Positions 1-11,555 of a stretch of 64,000 bases of DNA are shown here, one piece after another; position 1 is the stretch's first letter; the number at the start of each line of letters is the position of its first letter. Origin of the DNA: Rariglobus hedericola (GTDB lineage: Bacteria > Verrucomicrobiota > Verrucomicrobiia > Opitutales > Opitutaceae); NCBI RefSeq assembly GCF_007559335.1, contig NZ_VMBG01000001.1, positions 1,364,001 through 1,428,000 of the forward strand. Reading direction: 5' to 3'. The notes beneath the pieces are model-generated. The model saw only the letters and a program-made list of their open reading frames with translations. It did not search any database and had not been told where the DNA came from. The position numbers and the translations under genes are program-made.

Positions 1-1
1 C

Positions 2-742
2 GCCCGCTTCGAACGCATCGATCAGGCCTTCGTCGCCTGGGCACAAGACTGGCAAGCCGACATTGCTCAATTCCCCGCCTTGATCGCTTCGTCGACTCTT
101 TGCCACGCCGGTTATCCCGCTTCCTTTCCCCATTTGTTGATGAGCGCCTGCGCCTGCGCAGATCCCGCTCAACCACTGACACATTTACTGGCCTCCGAAA
201 ATCTCGCGCCCACCGACTGGCTACTGTCCCCCGCCGTCTGCTATCACGCTTACGCCCAATGGAGCGGACAACAACTACCTGAAGGCTCGGGCCGCATTTT
301 GACGGCCCGTGGCCGCTGCTTCCGTCGTGAAATCGAGTTCATCCCCGGACGTCGTCAGATCGAATTTGAAATGCGCGAGATCATCCTCTGTGGAGATCCC
401 GAATGGATGGAACCCTTCCTGACGAATGCTGTAACGCGTATCGACGAGATCGCTACATCCAGCAACCTCTCTGGGGTTTGGGCTCTCGCCGAAGATCCTT
501 TCTTTTTACCGGTCGCCCAAGGAAAAGCGCTCATCCAGCGGCTGCAGGAAACCAAAAAAGAATTCCTCGTTCGCTCAAGCGCTCAACTCGATCCGCTCGC
601 GATCGCCAGCATCAACCGTCACGGGACGTTCTTCGGCGAGCGCTTTGATCTTCGTCTCGCCAACGGAGCGCCCGCCCACACCGCCTGCATCGCCTTCGGA
701 CTTGATCGGTGGGCCTCTGCCACCGCCAACGCTGCCGCCTGA
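2..742 (+). CDS. amino acid:[carrier protein] ligase, class II aaRS-like (5' truncated by window)
   Basis: The frame is open to the first bases of the window, so the N-terminus is missing. The protein resembles the catalytic core of atypical seryl-tRNA synthetases. Family knowledge: homologues lack the tRNA-binding arm, activate a small amino acid (Gly or Ala in studied cases) and load it on the phosphopantetheine of a carrier protein. Visible family features are FPHL near 136-147, CYHAY (Cys codon 239-241), CFRREIEF (Glu codon 329-331) and HTACIAFGLDRW (Cys codon 686-688). The two Cys and one Glu match the three zinc ligands of the family, and FGLDRW is class II motif 3. The carrier protein gene begins 7 bp after the stop. 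The family call is firm; the amino acid used cannot be read from the sequence. Confidence 0.88.
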   Translation, partial: ARFERIDQAFVAWAQDWQADIAQFPALIASSTLCHAGYPASFPHLLMSACACADPAQPLTHLLASENLAPTDWLLSPAVCYHAYAQWSGQQLPEGSGRILTARGRCFRREIEFIPGRRQIEFEMREIILCGDPEWMEPFLTNAVTRIDEIATSSNLSGVWALAEDPFFLPVAQGKALIQRLQETKKEFLVRSSAQLDPLAIASINRHGTFFGERFDLRLANGAPAHTACIAFGLDRWASATANAAA

Positions 743-749
743 ACACCAC

Positions 750-977
750 ATGGAAACTTCCATTAAACTTCGTCTCGCACGCGTGTGCCCGACCCTCGCT
801 CCAAGACTTTCGCCCGACGTCCCGCTGATTGCCTGTGGCTTGGACAGTTTGGAGTTCGTCGAACTGCTGTGCGCCATCGAGTCCGAATTTCAAGTCCGTC
901 TCAGCGTAGACGATCTCACGCCTGAAACCACCGCCCGAAATCTTTTCGATCTCATCACCAACCGCATGATCCGCTAA
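750..977 (+). CDS. acyl/aminoacyl carrier protein
   Basis: A 75-residue carrier protein. The phosphopantetheine attachment motif is GLDSLEF, with Ser33 as the acceptor, followed by the usual acidic helix II (ELLCAIESEF). I use the ATG at 750, since the frame is open further upstream but a longer start would overlap the ligase deeply. Its position directly after the ligase gene suggests it is the ligase partner and the carrier on which an amino acid is held while downstream enzymes modify it. That role is inferred from context; the carrier-protein fold call rests on the motif and length. It is not placed beside fabF, so a role as the housekeeping fatty-acid ACP is less likely. Confidence 0.88.
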   Translation: METSIKLRLARVCPTLAPRLSPDVPLIACGLDSLEFVELLCAIESEFQVRLSVDDLTPETTARNLFDLITNRMIR

Positions 978-983
978 TTTCCC

Positions 984-1676
984 ATGACCTACGCCGATTA
1001 TCTTTCCCAGTCCGAACGCCAACGCTGGCTCATCGAAACCGACATCGACTGGGACAACGTCAACGCGCCCGCTTCGCTCACGCAGCCAGACTTGCTCAAA
1101 CGTCTGCGCGACGCCGCCCTCATCGAATCATTTTTCCCCATTCTCACGCCCCGTGTGCTCGACGTTCTCTGGGACGATCCCGCCGCCACCGCCATCTTCA
1201 GCGTTCAACTTTACGAAAGCTATAAACACTTCCACGTCTTCAATCTCTACTTGGAAAAAATCGGCTGGAATCCGCTCAACGACGACGACCTCGTGGCCGT
1301 CCGCCGTCGCAACATCGACCTGCATTACGATTCCCCCACCCGCGTCCTGACCCAGTATTTCATGAGCGAACATTTCGCTGCTCACGCGTTCTTCAAAGAC
1401 TCGCGGGCCGCACTCGATCCCGTTCTCAAACGCATTCTCCACCTCGTCGCGCAGGACGAAGTCCGCCACTCCCAATTCGGCTACGAATTACTCTCCGCCC
1501 GTATTGAGCGCCACCCAGCCGAGCGAGCCATCGTGATCGAAGCCGCCCGCTCCTACACGCACTTCGGTGCGTTAGTGGTGGACGAAGTTCCCATCGCCGA
1601 AAAAAACGACTTCACCGCGATCGTCGGACTCAACCAACGCCTCGTCCGTCTCTGCGGCGAGGGCATAGCCGTTTAA
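984..1676 (+). CDS. ferritin-like di-iron protein (putative oxygenase)
   Basis: A 230-residue, all-helical protein. Candidate di-iron ligands are spaced as in a four-helix ferritin-like bundle: Glu48, Glu78 with His82 (ESYKH), Glu129, and Glu159/His162 in the clear ExxH motif QDEVRH. The pattern resembles ribonucleotide-reductase-like or AurF-like oxygenases more than iron-storage ferritins, but no specific family is certain. It starts 6 bp after the carrier protein and is followed 11 bp later by a second di-iron protein, so it is probably cotranscribed. A reasonable inference is that it oxidises the carrier-bound amino acid or a product of it. The first histidine is one residue further from its Glu than the canonical ExxH, so this site may be irregular. 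Confidence 0.75.
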   Translation: MTYADYLSQSERQRWLIETDIDWDNVNAPASLTQPDLLKRLRDAALIESFFPILTPRVLDVLWDDPAATAIFSVQLYESYKHFHVFNLYLEKIGWNPLNDDDLVAVRRRNIDLHYDSPTRVLTQYFMSEHFAAHAFFKDSRAALDPVLKRILHLVAQDEVRHSQFGYELLSARIERHPAERAIVIEAARSYTHFGALVVDEVPIAEKNDFTAIVGLNQRLVRLCGEGIAV

Positions 1677-1687
1677 CTGGTCTCCGG

Positions 1688-2260
1688 ATGAATACCACCA
1701 CCCGCAACCTCGCCTGGAAACTCAATTGGTATCGGCAGAGCGAACTCGAGGGCGCACTGTTGCTCGGACGCATGGTGCGTTTCGCACCAGACGGAGATAC
1801 CGCCTCGCGCCTGCTCAAGCACTGTGCTGACGAGGCTCGTCACGCCCAACTCTGGAGCGAATGCATCGCCACACTCGGCCTGCCGCACGTGCGCATCCAC
1901 CGCAGCTATCAATCGCTTTTCGCCGATCACGGTGGCACGCCGGCCAACCTTACCGAAGTTCTGTCATTCACCCAAATCTTCGAGCGTCGCGTGCATAAAC
2001 GATTCACCACCGAGCGCACGCAACCCGAACTACCCGAAATCGTGCGGTCAACTTACGACATCATGATCCGCGACGAACATGATCACCTCGACTGGGTTCA
2101 CACGTGGCTGCTGTCCCAACCAGAGACGCAGGCCTTGATGAATCGTTATCTCCATATCGACGAAATCGTTTATCGCACCGTCCTCCCCCACGAAGCCGCC
2201 CTCTGGGAAATCACGGGGTTAGGCGATGAACTTAAATCGGCCGCGATTACCCATGAATAA
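1688..2260 (+). CDS. ferritin-like di-iron protein, second and distinct type
   Basis: A 190-residue helical protein with a textbook di-iron pattern: Glu21 then Glu49/His52 (DEARH) in the first half, and Glu99 then Glu130/His133 (DEHDH) in the second. Spacing within each half is about 28-31 residues, as in the ferritin, rubrerythrin and MiaE folds. It shares little sequence with the preceding di-iron protein, so the pair is not a recent tandem duplication. Its stop overlaps the start of the membrane methyltransferase gene, which implies translational coupling. The substrate is unknown; it may be a second oxidase or desaturase step, or a redox partner. Confidence 0.75.
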   Translation: MNTTTRNLAWKLNWYRQSELEGALLLGRMVRFAPDGDTASRLLKHCADEARHAQLWSECIATLGLPHVRIHRSYQSLFADHGGTPANLTEVLSFTQIFERRVHKRFTTERTQPELPEIVRSTYDIMIRDEHDHLDWVHTWLLSQPETQALMNRYLHIDEIVYRTVLPHEAALWEITGLGDELKSAAITHE

Positions 2261-3494
2261 TCTCTCCGCATTCGCGCTCATCATCACACCCGCCTTCACG
2301 TCGTGGTTTGTGCCCTGCATGCTGAATCATCGTCGCGGTGCCTGGACGTTCTCCGCGCTCTCGATGACCACCCTAAGTCTTATCGTTTTCCTTTTTGAGC
2401 CCACACTCATCTCCCGCGTTGCGATTCCGCTGATAGCGTCAGCCGTGTTTTTCGGATTTCTGGGCTGCATTTCATGCATCGTCGGTTTTCACGACAAACG
2501 CACATCAACGCCGTGGCTGCTCACGGCCTTCGTCTCGCTGGTTATAACTTTTTTCACAGCGTCCAAGGTCGCCCTATCGCTTATGATCATCTTCTCGTTG
2601 ATAGCCGTTTTGGTAGCGTGGTTTCAACGCGACACCGTTCAACACAACGACCAGCTTCCCGCACTAGCTGCAAATAATCGCACGCGGCGCGCCGGCAGCC
2701 TTCCTCGAAAATTTGTTCGCGAGGGCGCGTTCCATTGGCTGCCGATTTATGCGATTGCCCGACTGAGTGACCTTGCCCGAGAAGGCATTGAACATTCCGG
2801 CAGTTACCGTTTTGCCGATCACATTTATCGCAATGTCCCGTCTGGGCGCACCGCACTCGGACGCTGGATCGATGCACGTTTTCTGGCCTCGGCCGCATCG
2901 CGCGCCTTCCGCTTGCGCAACGACGAAGCCAGCCGCGCACTCGAAGCCGCCTGCGATTGCGATACCACCACCGACCGCACGGTTCGTATGCTCGCGGTTC
3001 CCTGCGGTCTGCCTCGTGATTTAAATTCGCTCGTCAAACGCCGCCCTGATGTCGCCTCGAAAATCGACTACCATGGTCTCGATATCGATCCCAATTTGCT
3101 CGGCCTGGCCGGGCAGTTCATCGCACCCAGCGCGGCTGCTGGCGCGAAGTGCACGTTTCACGAAGGCAACGCACTGAACCGCACGGATTATCCACGCAAC
3201 GATTTCGATGTGATCGTGAGCACGGGTCTCGGTGAATTTTTGGACGACGCGCAACTGGCACTTTTCTATCGGAATATCCATGCATCGCTTATTCCCGGCG
3301 GCCGATTCTTCACGAGTGCCACCCGCCGCGAAGCACGCACGGAAGCATTTTTAAAGGCATTCGAATTGGATACCAATTATCGCACCCAACCCGATCTCGA
3401 ACGTGCGCTCGCCTCGGTCGAACAACCGTGGTCACGACTCGAATTTACCACCGATGAAACCGGCCTCCAAACGTTCGTGATCGCCACCAAGTAG
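2253..3494 (+). CDS. membrane-anchored class I SAM-dependent methyltransferase-like protein
   Basis: About 413 residues. The N-terminal 120 are very hydrophobic with four or five predicted membrane spans. A linker rich in Arg and aromatic residues follows, then a Rossmann-like domain from about residue 240. In it, GLDIDP fits the acidic SAM-ribose site, EGNAL the adenine loop, and FDVIVSTGLGEF motif post-I. I chose ATG 2253, which overlaps the previous stop by 8 bases; ATG 2226 is possible and adds nine residues. As the last gene of this operon it suggests that the product is methylated at the membrane or is lipid-like. The methyl acceptor cannot be inferred. Confidence 0.72.
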   Translation: MNNLSAFALIITPAFTSWFVPCMLNHRRGAWTFSALSMTTLSLIVFLFEPTLISRVAIPLIASAVFFGFLGCISCIVGFHDKRTSTPWLLTAFVSLVITFFTASKVALSLMIIFSLIAVLVAWFQRDTVQHNDQLPALAANNRTRRAGSLPRKFVREGAFHWLPIYAIARLSDLAREGIEHSGSYRFADHIYRNVPSGRTALGRWIDARFLASAASRAFRLRNDEASRALEAACDCDTTTDRTVRMLAVPCGLPRDLNSLVKRRPDVASKIDYHGLDIDPNLLGLAGQFIAPSAAAGAKCTFHEGNALNRTDYPRNDFDVIVSTGLGEFLDDAQLALFYRNIHASLIPGGRFFTSATRREARTEAFLKAFELDTNYRTQPDLERALASVEQPWSRLEFTTDETGLQTFVIATK

Positions 3495-3526: not shown

Positions 3527-3566
3527 TAAAAAAGCAGACGGTTCAAAACGAACACGTCTGCTTTTG
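3527..3566. terminator. bidirectional Rho-independent terminator
   Basis: The inverted repeat AAAAGCAGACG ... CGTCTGCTTTT has a loop of about 14 bases. It carries an A tract on the left and a T tract on the right. It lies between the convergent methyltransferase and phosphohexomutase genes and can serve both. Confidence 0.85.
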
Positions 3567-3597
3567 AATCAACGGACCGAATTCGCCGGTGTTCAGT

Positions 3598-7112: not shown

Positions 7113-9653
7113 TCAGATCGCCACCGAGGGCAGCGACCAGATGTCCTTGGCGTATTCGCGGATGGTGCGATCGCTCGAGAACTTGCCGACACGGGCCGTG
7201 TTGAGGATCGCCATCTTCGCCCAGCGCGAGGTGTCGCGATAAGCCGCATCGACCTTCTCCTGCGCCTGCACGTAGCTGCGATAATCGGCCAGCACCTTGT
7301 AGGGATCGCCACCGTCTAGCAGGCTGTGGTGCAGCGCGCCGAAGGCATGGCTTTCGCCCGGAGTGAAGTAATCGGAACCGAGCCAATCGACAATGGCGCG
7401 GAGTTCGTCGTCGGCACCGTAGTAGTTCCAAGGGTTGTAGCCCTCGGCGTCCAGTTTCTCCACGTCGGGCACCTTGAGGCCGAAGATGAAGATGTTGTCG
7501 TCACCGACTTCCTCGCCGATTTCGACATTGGCGCCATCGAGCGTGCCGATGGTGAGCGAACCGTTGAGGGCGAGCTTCATGTTGCCCGTGCCGGAAGCTT
7601 CCTTGCCGGCGGTCGAGATCTGCTCCGAAAGATCGGAGGCGGGAATGATCTTCTCGGCGAGCGAGACGCGGTAGTTGGGCAGGAAGGCGACCTTCAATTT
7701 CCCATTGATGCGGTCGTCCTTGTTGATGCGGTCGCCGATGACGTTGATCGCGCGAATAATGTTTTTCGCGAGGTCGTAGCCGGGAGCGGCCTTGGCGCCG
7801 AAGACGAATACGCGAGGCACGATGTCGAGCGACGGGTTCTGCAACAGGCGGCGGTAAAGCGTGAGGATGTGCAGCAGGTTCAAGTGCTGGCGCTTGTATT
7901 CATGGAGGCGCTTGATCTGCACGTCGAAGAGCGCATCGGGCGACACATCGACGCCGCAATCGGCTTTGATGACCGTCGCGAGGTCCTGCTTGTTGGCGCG
8001 CTTGATCGCCATGAACTCCTTCTGGAAGGCCTTGTCGTCGGCGAATTTTTCGAGTCCGCGGAGGACGTCGAGATCGCGGGCCCAGATGGTGGGCGAACCG
8101 AGTTTTTCGGTGATGAGTTTGGTGAGGCGCGGATTACAATCGAGCAGCCAGCGACGCGGCGTGATGCCGTTGGTCTTGTTCTGGAATTTGCCCGGGTAGA
8201 GATTGTCGAAATCGGGGAAGAGATCCTTCTTCAGGAGTTCGGTGTGCAGCGCGGCGACACCGTTGACGGCGTGCGAACCGACCACCGCGAGATTGGCCAT
8301 GCGGAAGGCCTTGGCACCGCCCTCTTCGACGAGGGAGAGGATGGCTTTCTTTTTGTTGTCACCCGGCCACTTGGCCTCGACCACTTCCATCAGGCGGCGG
8401 TTGATCTCGTAAACGATCTGGGTGTGGCGCGGGAGCACACGCGTGAAGAGCGGAACGCCCCACTTTTCCAAGGCTTCGGGAAGCAGCGTGTGATTAGTGT
8501 AGCCGAAGGTGTTGGTGACGATCGACCAGGCTTTTTCCCAAGCGAAATTATGTTCGTCGAGGAGGATGCGGAGAAGCTCGGCGACGGCGACGGCGGGATG
8601 CGTGTCGTTGAGCTGGACGGCGACCTTGTCGTCGAAGTTTTCCCACGAGTTGCCCTCGTGGCGGAAGTGACGGCGGATGATGTCGCGGAGTGAGCACGAA
8701 ACGAAGAAATACTGCTGCACCAGACGCAGTTCCTTGCCGTTCTCAGTCTTGTCATTCGGGTAAAGAACCTTCGAAACGGTTTCGCCGATGGCTTTCTCGC
8801 GGACGGCATCCACATAGCCGCCGCTGTTGAACGCCACCAAGTCGAATTCCTCGGTCGAGCGCGAGGCCCAGAGGCGGAGCAAGTTGACCGTGGCGGTGCC
8901 GTAACCGGCGATCGGAATGTCGTAGGGGACGCCGAGAATGGTCTTGGTGTCGGTCCAGCGCGGGTGTGAGTTGCCGTTGTTGTCGAAGACGTTTTCGACG
9001 CGGCCGTAGATTTTGACGTCGGTCGTGTATTCGGGACGGACGACTTCCCACGGGGTTCCGAAAATCATCCAGTTGTCCGGATGCTCCACCTGATGACCGT
9101 GGACGAACTCCTGCTTGAAGAGACCGAATTCGTAATGGATGCCGTAGCCGATCGCGGGGAAATCCAGCGTGGCGAGCGAGTCGAGGAAACACGCGGCAAG
9201 ACGGCCGAGACCGCCGTTGCCCAAGCCCATGTCCACTTCGCTCTCGCGAACGGACTCCCAGTCAACGCCGAGGTCTTTCAACGCGGTGCGGGCTTCATCA
9301 TAGAGACCGGTATTGTAGAGATTATTCTCAAACAGACGGCCCATCAGATACTCGAGGGAGAGGTAATAAAGACGGCGGACATTCTCTTTGTTATGGACGC
9401 CCTGGGTCTTGATCAGGCGGGTAAGGATCTGTTCGCGGACGGCCAGCGAGGTGGCGATCCACCAGTCACGCGGCTTGGCGGTGACCCGGTCACGAGCGAG
9501 TGCCGAAGTGAGGTTGCGAAGGATGGCCTGCTGCAAGGACTGCACGGGGTCATCCGTGGAGCGTCGCTGCGGAACCGCGGCCGGCGAGACCGGTGCGGAA
9601 GCAGGAGCAATGGCAGGAGCGGTCTTCGACGTGGATTTTTTAGGAGCGGGCAT
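7113..9653 (-). CDS. glgP: glycogen/alpha-glucan phosphorylase
   Basis: 846 residues, the normal length for the GT35 family. The pyridoxal-phosphate lysine is Lys693 in [14 protein letters not shown], which is followed by [22 protein letters not shown]-type sequence, NGITPRRWL and the [10 protein letters not shown]-terminal signature are also present. The first 30 residues are a Pro/Ala-rich extension ([12 protein letters not shown]), which is unusual but may be real since the only good start is the ATG at 9653. It releases glucose 1-phosphate from glycogen with phosphate. It heads a same-strand group with the uridylyltransferase and mutase, although a terminator after glgP suggests separate control of those two. 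Confidence 0.97.
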
Positions 9654-9770
9654 GCGTTATAAAGAAGGAAGTGATTAACCAAGAAGCGTGCCAGCCGGAA
9701 GCGGTTGGTCAGGTTCTTTCTACGATAAAAAATTTAAAACAGGCGGAAACCGGGGTGCGTCACCGAAATG

Positions 9771-11555
9771 TTACCGCTGAAAGCGTCGGGAAAGCTCCCC
9801 ATGACTGAATTCGATGTGGGTCGGCGTGCCGCCCGGACTGGTCAAAGGAGCCCGGCAGGCGAACAATTGAGCCACGAGCGACTGCATCGCCTCCTCGCTG
9901 ACAACCTCGCCCAGGCGAATCGCACGTGAGGCCGCCAGTCGTGCAAGTTGCTCCCGCGCGACATCGAGTTTGCGCTCCTGCAATTGTCCGTCTCGCAAAG
10001 CCCCCAGCAATTCACGCACAAAGGGCTCTGAATCGGCCGGCTCCATCCACGCCGGCACGCCTTCGATTCGGAAAAAATTACGGCCAAACTCAACGACTTC
10101 GAACCCGTGGCCGTTGAGAAACTCCAGCCGGTCCAGCAGCAACGCGCTCGCGATCGGGTCCAGCTCAACAGGAATCGGCAGCAGCAAACGCTGACTCGGC
10201 ACCGCGCCTTCACTAAACTGGGCCTGCAGGCGCTCGAACCAGATGCGTTCATGCGCCGCCCGACGATCCAGCAGCACGAGTCCGGCTTTCGTTTCAAACA
10301 GACCGTAGCTGCCGTGAGCCAAACCCAAGAATCGCCACGCCGGTGCCGAAACCACCGGCGGCGAAATCGGGCGAACGATTTCCGGCAAAACCTGCGGCGC
10401 CTGATCATCCATTCGTCGCTCCACGCGCGCTGGCAGGACCGGAGCGAGTTTCGGCGCAGTCGTCGGCGATGGCACAACCGGCGTTCTCATCGCAAAAGGC
10501 GGCAGCGTAATACTCCGCGCCGCCACCGGAACAAATACTTCGGGAGCAACCGGCACACTCACCTCGCCGAGCTCGCGCAACCGCATCAGCACACTGCGAA
10601 TAATGAAGCCACGCACTGCTGTTTCAGAGCGAAAACGCACTTCGCGCTTCGATGGATGCACATTCACGTCGACCGCCGCCGGATCGAGTTCAAAGAAGAC
10701 AAACGCCAGCGGATACCGCCCCTTTGGCAACGATTCATGGTAACTCTCGATCAACGCGTAGTTGATCGCACGGCTGTCCACAGGACGTTGGTTGATGAAC
10801 GTGATCATCTCATGGCGCGACGATCTCCCCTGCCCCGGCAAACCGATCAAGCCGCTCAAGCGCATGCCATTCTCCGAGACATCAATCGGGGTGAGCTGGC
10901 CGGCGAGCTGACGTCCAAAAATTTCCGTCACGCGTCCCAGCAGATCAACGCATTCCGGAGAACGAAAAATCACCCGTCCATCTTCGATCAACGTGAAGGC
11001 GACCTGCGGAAACGCCAAGGCGTAGAGCCGCACGCCGGTGATGATGTGCGCGGCCTCGGTCTGGTCGGTCTTGAGAAACTTGCGGCGGGCAGGAACCGAG
11101 TTGAACAGCTGCGACACCTCGATGCGCGTGCCCACCGGACGACCGCAGTCCCGCACGTGCACAAACTTGCCGCCGTTGACGAGAATCTCCGAACCCACGT
11201 CCGTGCCGGCCTCGCGAGTTTGTAGTATAAAACGGGATACACTCGCGATGGACGGCAGTGCTTCGCCGCGAAAACCGAAACTCGCGAGACGGTTGAGATC
11301 ATCGGCCTCGCTGATCTTGCTGGTCGCGTGGCGCTCAAGCGCGAGCAGCGCATCATCGCGCGACATGCCATGGCCGTTGTCCTCTACACTCATCAACGAA
11401 CGCCCGCCATGCCGGAACTCGACCTCGATGCGTGTCGCACCGGCATCGACTGCATTCTCGACGAGCTCTTTCACCACCGCTGCCGGACGCTCGATCACTT
11501 CGCCTGCGGCGATTTGATTGGCGACCCGGTCGGAGAGGATGCGGACTTTGGCCAT
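9771..11555 (-). CDS. mutL: DNA mismatch repair protein MutL
   Basis: 594 residues from ATG 11555 (MAKVRILSD). The GHKL ATPase motifs are intact: ELVENAVDAG (motif I), DNGHGM (II), RHATSKI, and GFRGEALPSIASVS (III). PVDSRAINYALIESY and VHPSKREVRF complete the N-terminal domain. The C-terminal dimerisation domain is present, but the endonuclease motif normally read DQHA is DRRA here. The terminal CPHGRP-type zinc site is also lost (SHGELS). The protein may therefore lack nicking activity although it would still act as an ATP-driven matchmaker. It is followed upstream on the same strand by argH, with a 35-bp gap. Confidence 0.96.
   Translation of the reverse strand: MAKVRILSDRVANQIAAGEVIERPAAVVKELVENAVDAGATRIEVEFRHGGRSLMSVEDNGHGMSRDDALLALERHATSKISEADDLNRLASFGFRGEALPSIASVSRFILQTREAGTDVGSEILVNGGKFVHVRDCGRPVGTRIEVSQLFNSVPARRKFLKTDQTEAAHIITGVRLYALAFPQVAFTLIEDGRVIFRSPECVDLLGRVTEIFGRQLAGQLTPIDVSENGMRLSGLIGLPGQGRSSRHEMITFINQRPVDSRAINYALIESYHESLPKGRYPLAFVFFELDPAAVDVNVHPSKREVRFRSETAVRGFIIRSVLMRLRELGEVSVPVAPEVFVPVAARSITLPPFAMRTPVVPSPTTAPKLAPVLPARVERRMDDQAPQVLPEIVRPISPPVVSAPAWRFLGLAHGSYGLFETKAGLVLLDRRAAHERIWFERLQAQFSEGAVPSQRLLLPIPVELDPIASALLLDRLEFLNGHGFEVVEFGRNFFRIEGVPAWMEPADSEPFVRELLGALRDGQLQERKLDVAREQLARLAASRAIRLGEVVSEEAMQSLVAQLFACRAPLTSPGGTPTHIEFSHGELSRRFQR

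Follow-up and report, generated by a model that had tools for sequence, protein, structure and literature searches.

The stretch of DNA analysed in the present study, hereafter the window, comprises 64,000 nucleotides of the Rariglobus hedericola genome (G000:C1:1364001-1428000), and it opens, at positions 2-3494, with the final five genes of a plus-strand operon that has eight in all. The operon encodes, in order, a KAS III-like synthase, a short-chain dehydrogenase/reductase (SDR), a carrier protein (ACP1), an amino acid:[carrier protein] ligase resembling aminoacyl-tRNA synthetases (aaRS), a second carrier protein (ACP2), two di-iron proteins (DI1 and DI2) and a methyltransferase; the part upstream of the window was read in the same genome as stretch L002. 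The operon is real and conserved, was transferred horizontally and is apparently undescribed. We estimate at about 55% the probability that it specifies a dedicated, self-contained and horizontally acquired pathway to an oxidised, methylated product combining an amino acid with an acyl group, a reading based on synteny and co-occurrence of the genes, their insertion as a unit, the conservation of catalytic residues and family resemblances. A preliminary description of the window had noted five tightly spaced or overlapping plus-strand genes and expected the operon to start before the window with further members. The window genes are indeed separated by 6-11 bp or overlap (-35 to +11 bp across the whole operon in this genome), and the KAS III-like, SDR and ACP1 genes are three such members.

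All eight recur, with order and strand unchanged, in five other Verrucomicrobiota, mostly at 35-60% identity to the window, so that 8/8 genes are syntenic in six genomes, a conservation rated far beyond chance. When 388 Verrucomicrobiota genomes were searched with DI1, three relatives at 58-60% identity and nothing weaker were returned; they share the class but come from other families, and their gene order was read from the surrounding 20 kb each. Separate searches confined ligase, DI1 and DI2 each to the same four of the 388 genomes; a weak ligase match in genome G221 (19.6 bits, with an internal stop) was discounted. An exact short-motif scan of one genome per species across 84,980 species, which distant versions may escape, added only two loci, both from Verrucomicrobiota metagenome-assembled genomes and both keeping the full order, one of them ending at a contig edge inside the KAS gene. 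The combination of ligase, carrier(s), two unrelated di-iron proteins and methyltransferase recognised earlier is therefore a real operon by six-genome synteny, and linkage, the loss of which had been named as grounds for abandoning the proposal, is kept in the relatives. DI1 is the best conserved operon protein (57-60% between the window and the others, up to 90% among the others). The operon loci have no flanking gene that all of them share, although L009 and L010 have one strong neighbour in common, and the unit is therefore taken to be these eight genes. Plasmid searches with DI1, DI2, KAS and the methyltransferase gave no match, nor did a PHROGs search.

The operon begins after the pyruvate dehydrogenase genes and is followed by a phosphoglucomutase gene on the opposite strand. 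It is absent from congeners, in which these two neighbours nearly abut: the distance from the pdhC stop to the phosphoglucomutase end is about 80-200 bp in four congeners and 1.6 kb in a fifth, compared with 6.1 kb in the window genome, where the operon alone lies between. The ligase was found in 0/93 relatives of the same order, and GC content at third codon positions is 0.62-0.73 in the operon versus 0.74-0.83 in the pdh genes of the window genome. These observations support arrival of the operon in this genome as one unit, a horizontally gained and self-sufficient pathway.

The ligase (251 aa, of which the C-terminal 246 lie inside the window, its ATG being 14 bases upstream) is without a tRNA-binding domain and belongs by homology to the broad amino acid:[carrier protein] ligase family. 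Its closest solved relative is Bll0957 (PDB 3mey, E 4e-34 over the catalytic core). Alignment with this protein upholds the three zinc-ligand residues previously assigned to the ligase (C85, E131 and C234), which, together with R113xE115 and G238xxR241 of class II motifs 2 and 3, are invariant in six copies; the aligned Bll0957 residues are presumably C131, E176 and C279, if we read the tag offset correctly as 20. By analogy, the ligase would load Gly or Ala on a carrier protein. In a tree whose branches are long and whose supports are modest, it falls in a group of its own, distinct both from the ligases linked to acyl-CoA dehydrogenases and from those linked to AurF-type proteins. Few pathway roles have, to our knowledge, been assigned to carrier-protein ligases derived from aaRS. 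Bll0957-type systems (Mocibob 2010/2013) likewise have a SerRS-like class II core, zinc ligands and an adjacent carrier protein, but their own partners are an acyl-CoA dehydrogenase-like protein, DUF1839 and a glycosidase, whereas the present ligase is shorter, falls in a separate clade and is accompanied by KAS, SDR, a second ACP, two di-iron proteins and a methyltransferase.

Against a profile built from nine carriers of mixed type that adjoin such ligases elsewhere, ACP1 scored 44-49 bits and ACP2 15-31 bits, with ACP1 higher in all six genomes, and ACP2 matches the AcpP-type models TIGR00517/PRK00982. Because of these scores and matches, ACP1 is predicted to be the ligase partner that carries the amino acid, and ACP2 to be a fatty-acyl type carrier holding an acyl chain. 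ACP2, the carrier inside the window, has the phosphopantetheine serine reported for it, within LDSLEFVELL (DSMDTVELL in most relatives). Its pairing with the ligase in the preliminary description is probably wrong, given the higher scores of ACP1 outside the window; a single weak PRK07081 match (18.7 bits) that had hinted at ACP2 as the partner was set aside on the same grounds.

The KAS III-like protein keeps Cys133 and departs from the FabH-type Cys-His-Asn triad, with T or N at the His244 position and His at the Asn274 position. The His/Asn pair is replaced in every full-length copy, which argues against ordinary FabH chemistry. The SDR matches NAD_binding_4 (99 bits) and TIGR01746 (69 bits) and shows YxxxK and SKWxAE motifs, making it thioester-reductase-like. 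With two carrier types and a synthase of the KAS III-like fold family at hand, and with ketoreductases such as OleD among the SDR superfamily, a malonyl-dependent route could be imagined, in which KAS joins aminoacyl-ACP1 to malonyl-ACP2, the SDR reduces the 3-oxo group, and oxidation and methylation yield a short amino-polyketide. The altered His/Asn pair and the lack of a malonyltransferase in the operon make such a route rather improbable.

DI1 and DI2 had been described as two unrelated ferritin-like di-iron proteins, and both models show a ferritin-like fold while the two profiles align with an hhalign probability of 0.3%; with no profile similarity, they were rejected as paralogues. The putative ligands of DI1, assigned from sequence and helix positions, are E48, E78..H82, E129 and E159xxH162. 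Only E159xxH162 is canonical, since the second helix reads E78SYK81H82, an unusual ExxxH, and DI1 thus departs from the two-ExxH pattern of desaturases. Its model has the desaturase fold over the whole protein and is nearest to acyl-ACP desaturases (Z 18.1, root-mean-square deviation (rmsd) 3.5, 221 residues, 16% identity), in a kind of comparison where helical bundles generally score high. The match to PF03405 (14.5 bits) is below the cutoff of 22.7, and the top Foldseek row is the azoxy synthase VlmB at a weak E of 4.8e-3. DI2 has six canonical putative ligands (E19, E49xxH52, E99 and E130xxH133), and its model (pLDDT 91) is nearest to aldehyde-deformylating oxygenases (ADO; Z 17.8, rmsd 2.5, 169 residues), whose fold and E, ExxH, E, ExxH ligands it shares. 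The alkane pathway of acyl-ACP reductase and ADO likewise includes reductive release and an ADO-like fold, but DI2 had no match to the ADO profiles PF11266/TIGR04059 listed up to E 1, and the amino acid ligase, KAS and a second di-iron protein are extra in the operon.

Among published systems, the ham cluster comes closest in its logic, and the operon is assembled from different families. The ham/pvf pathways to fragin and valdiazen likewise use amino acid activation with carrier tethering, di-iron oxidation and a reductive release domain, their own parts being a nonribosomal peptide synthetase (NRPS) of adenylation-thiolation-reductase (A-T-R) type, an AurF homologue and a haem-oxygenase-like protein, with no KAS III (PMC11659414). 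The operon falls outside this type, its ligase, ACP and SDR being discrete and its di-iron proteins not of the AurF type. In a disassembled form of the same logic, ligase, ACP1 and SDR would stand in for the A-T-R module, and N-oxidation of the tethered amino acid would fall to the di-iron proteins, as tethered L-Val is oxidised by the di-iron protein HamC alongside HamD with its reductase domain (PMC11659414); KAS and ACP2 would add an acyl group, and the product would be an N-oxidised signal (hydroxylamine, azoxy or diazeniumdiolate). The VlmB row for DI1 fits this, as do similar ligases in other phyla that adjoin AurF-type oxygenases and nitronate monooxygenases. We nevertheless find it unlikely. 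The seventh ligand of AurF, the extra His of HxxxExxH in the last helix (H225/E229/H232 in Dob3; PMC13061610), is replaced by an invariant V155 in DI1 and M126 in DI2, on which basis an AurF/CmlI-type N-oxygenase was rejected for either protein. VlmB reaches a Z of 14.8 with DI1, less than the desaturases, and the operon has no cupin or NRPS.

The seventh ligand is present in the ligase-adjacent di-iron proteins of Tistrella, Streptomyces and Agrobacterium. Clusters of Tistrella, Streptomyces and Agrobacterium vitis, which are undescribed as far as we know, resemble the operon in combining an aaRS-like ligase, a carrier and a di-iron oxygenase, in Tistrella also a methyltransferase, but differ in having a ligase of another clade, a di-iron protein with all seven AurF ligands and no homologue of KAS, SDR, DI1, DI2 or the methyltransferase next to the ligase. 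Clusters of an aaRS-like ligase, an ACP and a seven-ligand AurF-type oxygenase recur in other phyla (L017 6628-10938, L014 7761-12407, L018 6720-9457 and L021 6085-9641), often with a nitronate monooxygenase and a phosphopantetheinyl transferase (PPTase), and look like as yet unassigned N-oxidation pathways acting on a tethered amino acid. On a megaplasmid of Streptomyces clavuligerus (L013 8839-11023), a ligase is found with a carrier-like protein and a PPTase, with condensation-domain and phytanoyl-dioxygenase genes nearby.

The methyltransferase belongs to Methyltransf_20 (PF12147; 42.7 bits, cutoff 21). Its description as membrane-anchored stands for this genome, where a hydrophobic N-terminal domain is encoded (window 2226-2650, about residues 1-140), and does not extend to the operon's other copies, the domain being absent from 5/5 relatives. 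Complete Methyltransf_20 proteins in the phylum are fused to a hydrolase (L063, L064) and neighboured by genes for a cytidylyltransferase (CTP transferase), an acyltransferase, a PAP2/DSP phosphatase and an MGDG synthase; the context of the family in Verrucomicrobiota is one of lipid, phospholipid-type loci. Such lipid links, the gain of a membrane domain in this genome, and the fact that earlier authors doubted whether related ligase loci, located near liposaccharide genes, have a role with peptides (PMC2922099) could point to protein or lipid modification in place of small-molecule synthesis, with aminoacyl groups transferred to an acceptor, either a membrane lipid or a protein, and then methylated. 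Neither KAS, SDR nor two di-iron proteins would be needed for this and the membrane domain is not conserved; we hold it to be very improbable.

In the dedicated pathway that we favour, the ligase would adenylate a small amino acid and load it on ACP1, while ACP2 would hold an acyl chain. The KAS III-like enzyme would take one of the two substrates as a Cys thioester and join it to the other, more probably as an acyltransferase or in another non-standard condensation than in the manner of FabH. DI1 and DI2 would use O2 for desaturation, hydroxylation or N-oxidation of the tethered or released intermediate, the SDR would free it reductively as an aldehyde or alcohol, and the methyltransferase would then methylate it, to give a small molecule or a lipid that might act as a signal. 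The sequence of tethering, oxidation and methylation proposed in the preliminary description does not hold as written, because the operon also includes the KAS III-like enzyme and the thioester-reductase-like SDR. Several points weigh against the favoured pathway. The order of steps and the substrates are guesses, and the carrier roles depend on scores against nine partner carriers of mixed type. The ligase reaches 135 bits with the NCBIfam equivalog PRK07080, below the cutoff of 357, and ketoreductase or epimerase activity is also conceivable for the SDR. The second-helix ligand pair of DI1 is odd and its model is of moderate quality (pLDDT 80.6; five models 52-81). The eight operon genes include no transporter or regulator and so give no hint of where the product goes.

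Coordinates are collected below. The leader before the first operon gene is short (L002:9590-9640) and contains TTGACA within a palindrome-like GTTGACATATCAAC, recognised by eye, a possible promoter and operator. The right edge of the inserted segment is near the inverted repeat that follows the methyltransferase gene. In L009, a 288-bp gap (about 9596-9880) separates the DI1 and DI2 genes, which overlap or nearly touch in other relatives.

Table 1 Features of the operon and its downstream end in Rariglobus hedericola (window positions unless prefixed L002)
Feature	Position	Strand	Remarks
KAS III-like protein	L002:9636-10607		First operon gene, upstream of window
SDR, NAD_binding_4/thioester-reductase type	L002:10604-11653		Upstream of window
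Carrier protein ACP1	L002:11650-11997		Upstream of window; overlaps ligase gene
aaRS-like amino acid:[carrier protein] ligase	1..742 (L002:11987-12742)	+	Open at window edge
Carrier protein ACP2	750..977	+	PP-binding 42 bits
Di-iron protein 1 (DI1)	984..1676	+	Putative ligands invariant in six genomes; fold model
Di-iron protein 2 (DI2)	1688..2260	+	Putative ligands invariant in six genomes; fold model
Class I SAM methyltransferase, Methyltransf_20 type	2226..3494	+	Last operon gene
Terminator-like inverted repeat and T run	3528..3568	+	By eye: AAGCAGACGGTTC..GAACACGTCTGCTTTT

No paper naming this gene set was found in the open literature, a limited negative as subscription journals were outside the scope. 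We tentatively suggest, at somewhat less than even odds, that an aaRS-derived ligase here feeds acyl-carrier chemistry, and that a KAS with a rearranged site and two unrelated di-iron oxidases, one with ExxxH, make an undescribed class of oxidised aminoacyl products, which would amount to a natural-product or lipid pathway of a new kind. The operon defines a separate ligase clade and indicates which carrier protein loading assays should use, and it offers two uncharacterised di-iron families together with a KAS of altered active site. As a compact, mobile eight-gene unit of conserved order, it lends itself to transfer into a host and to testing in its entirety.

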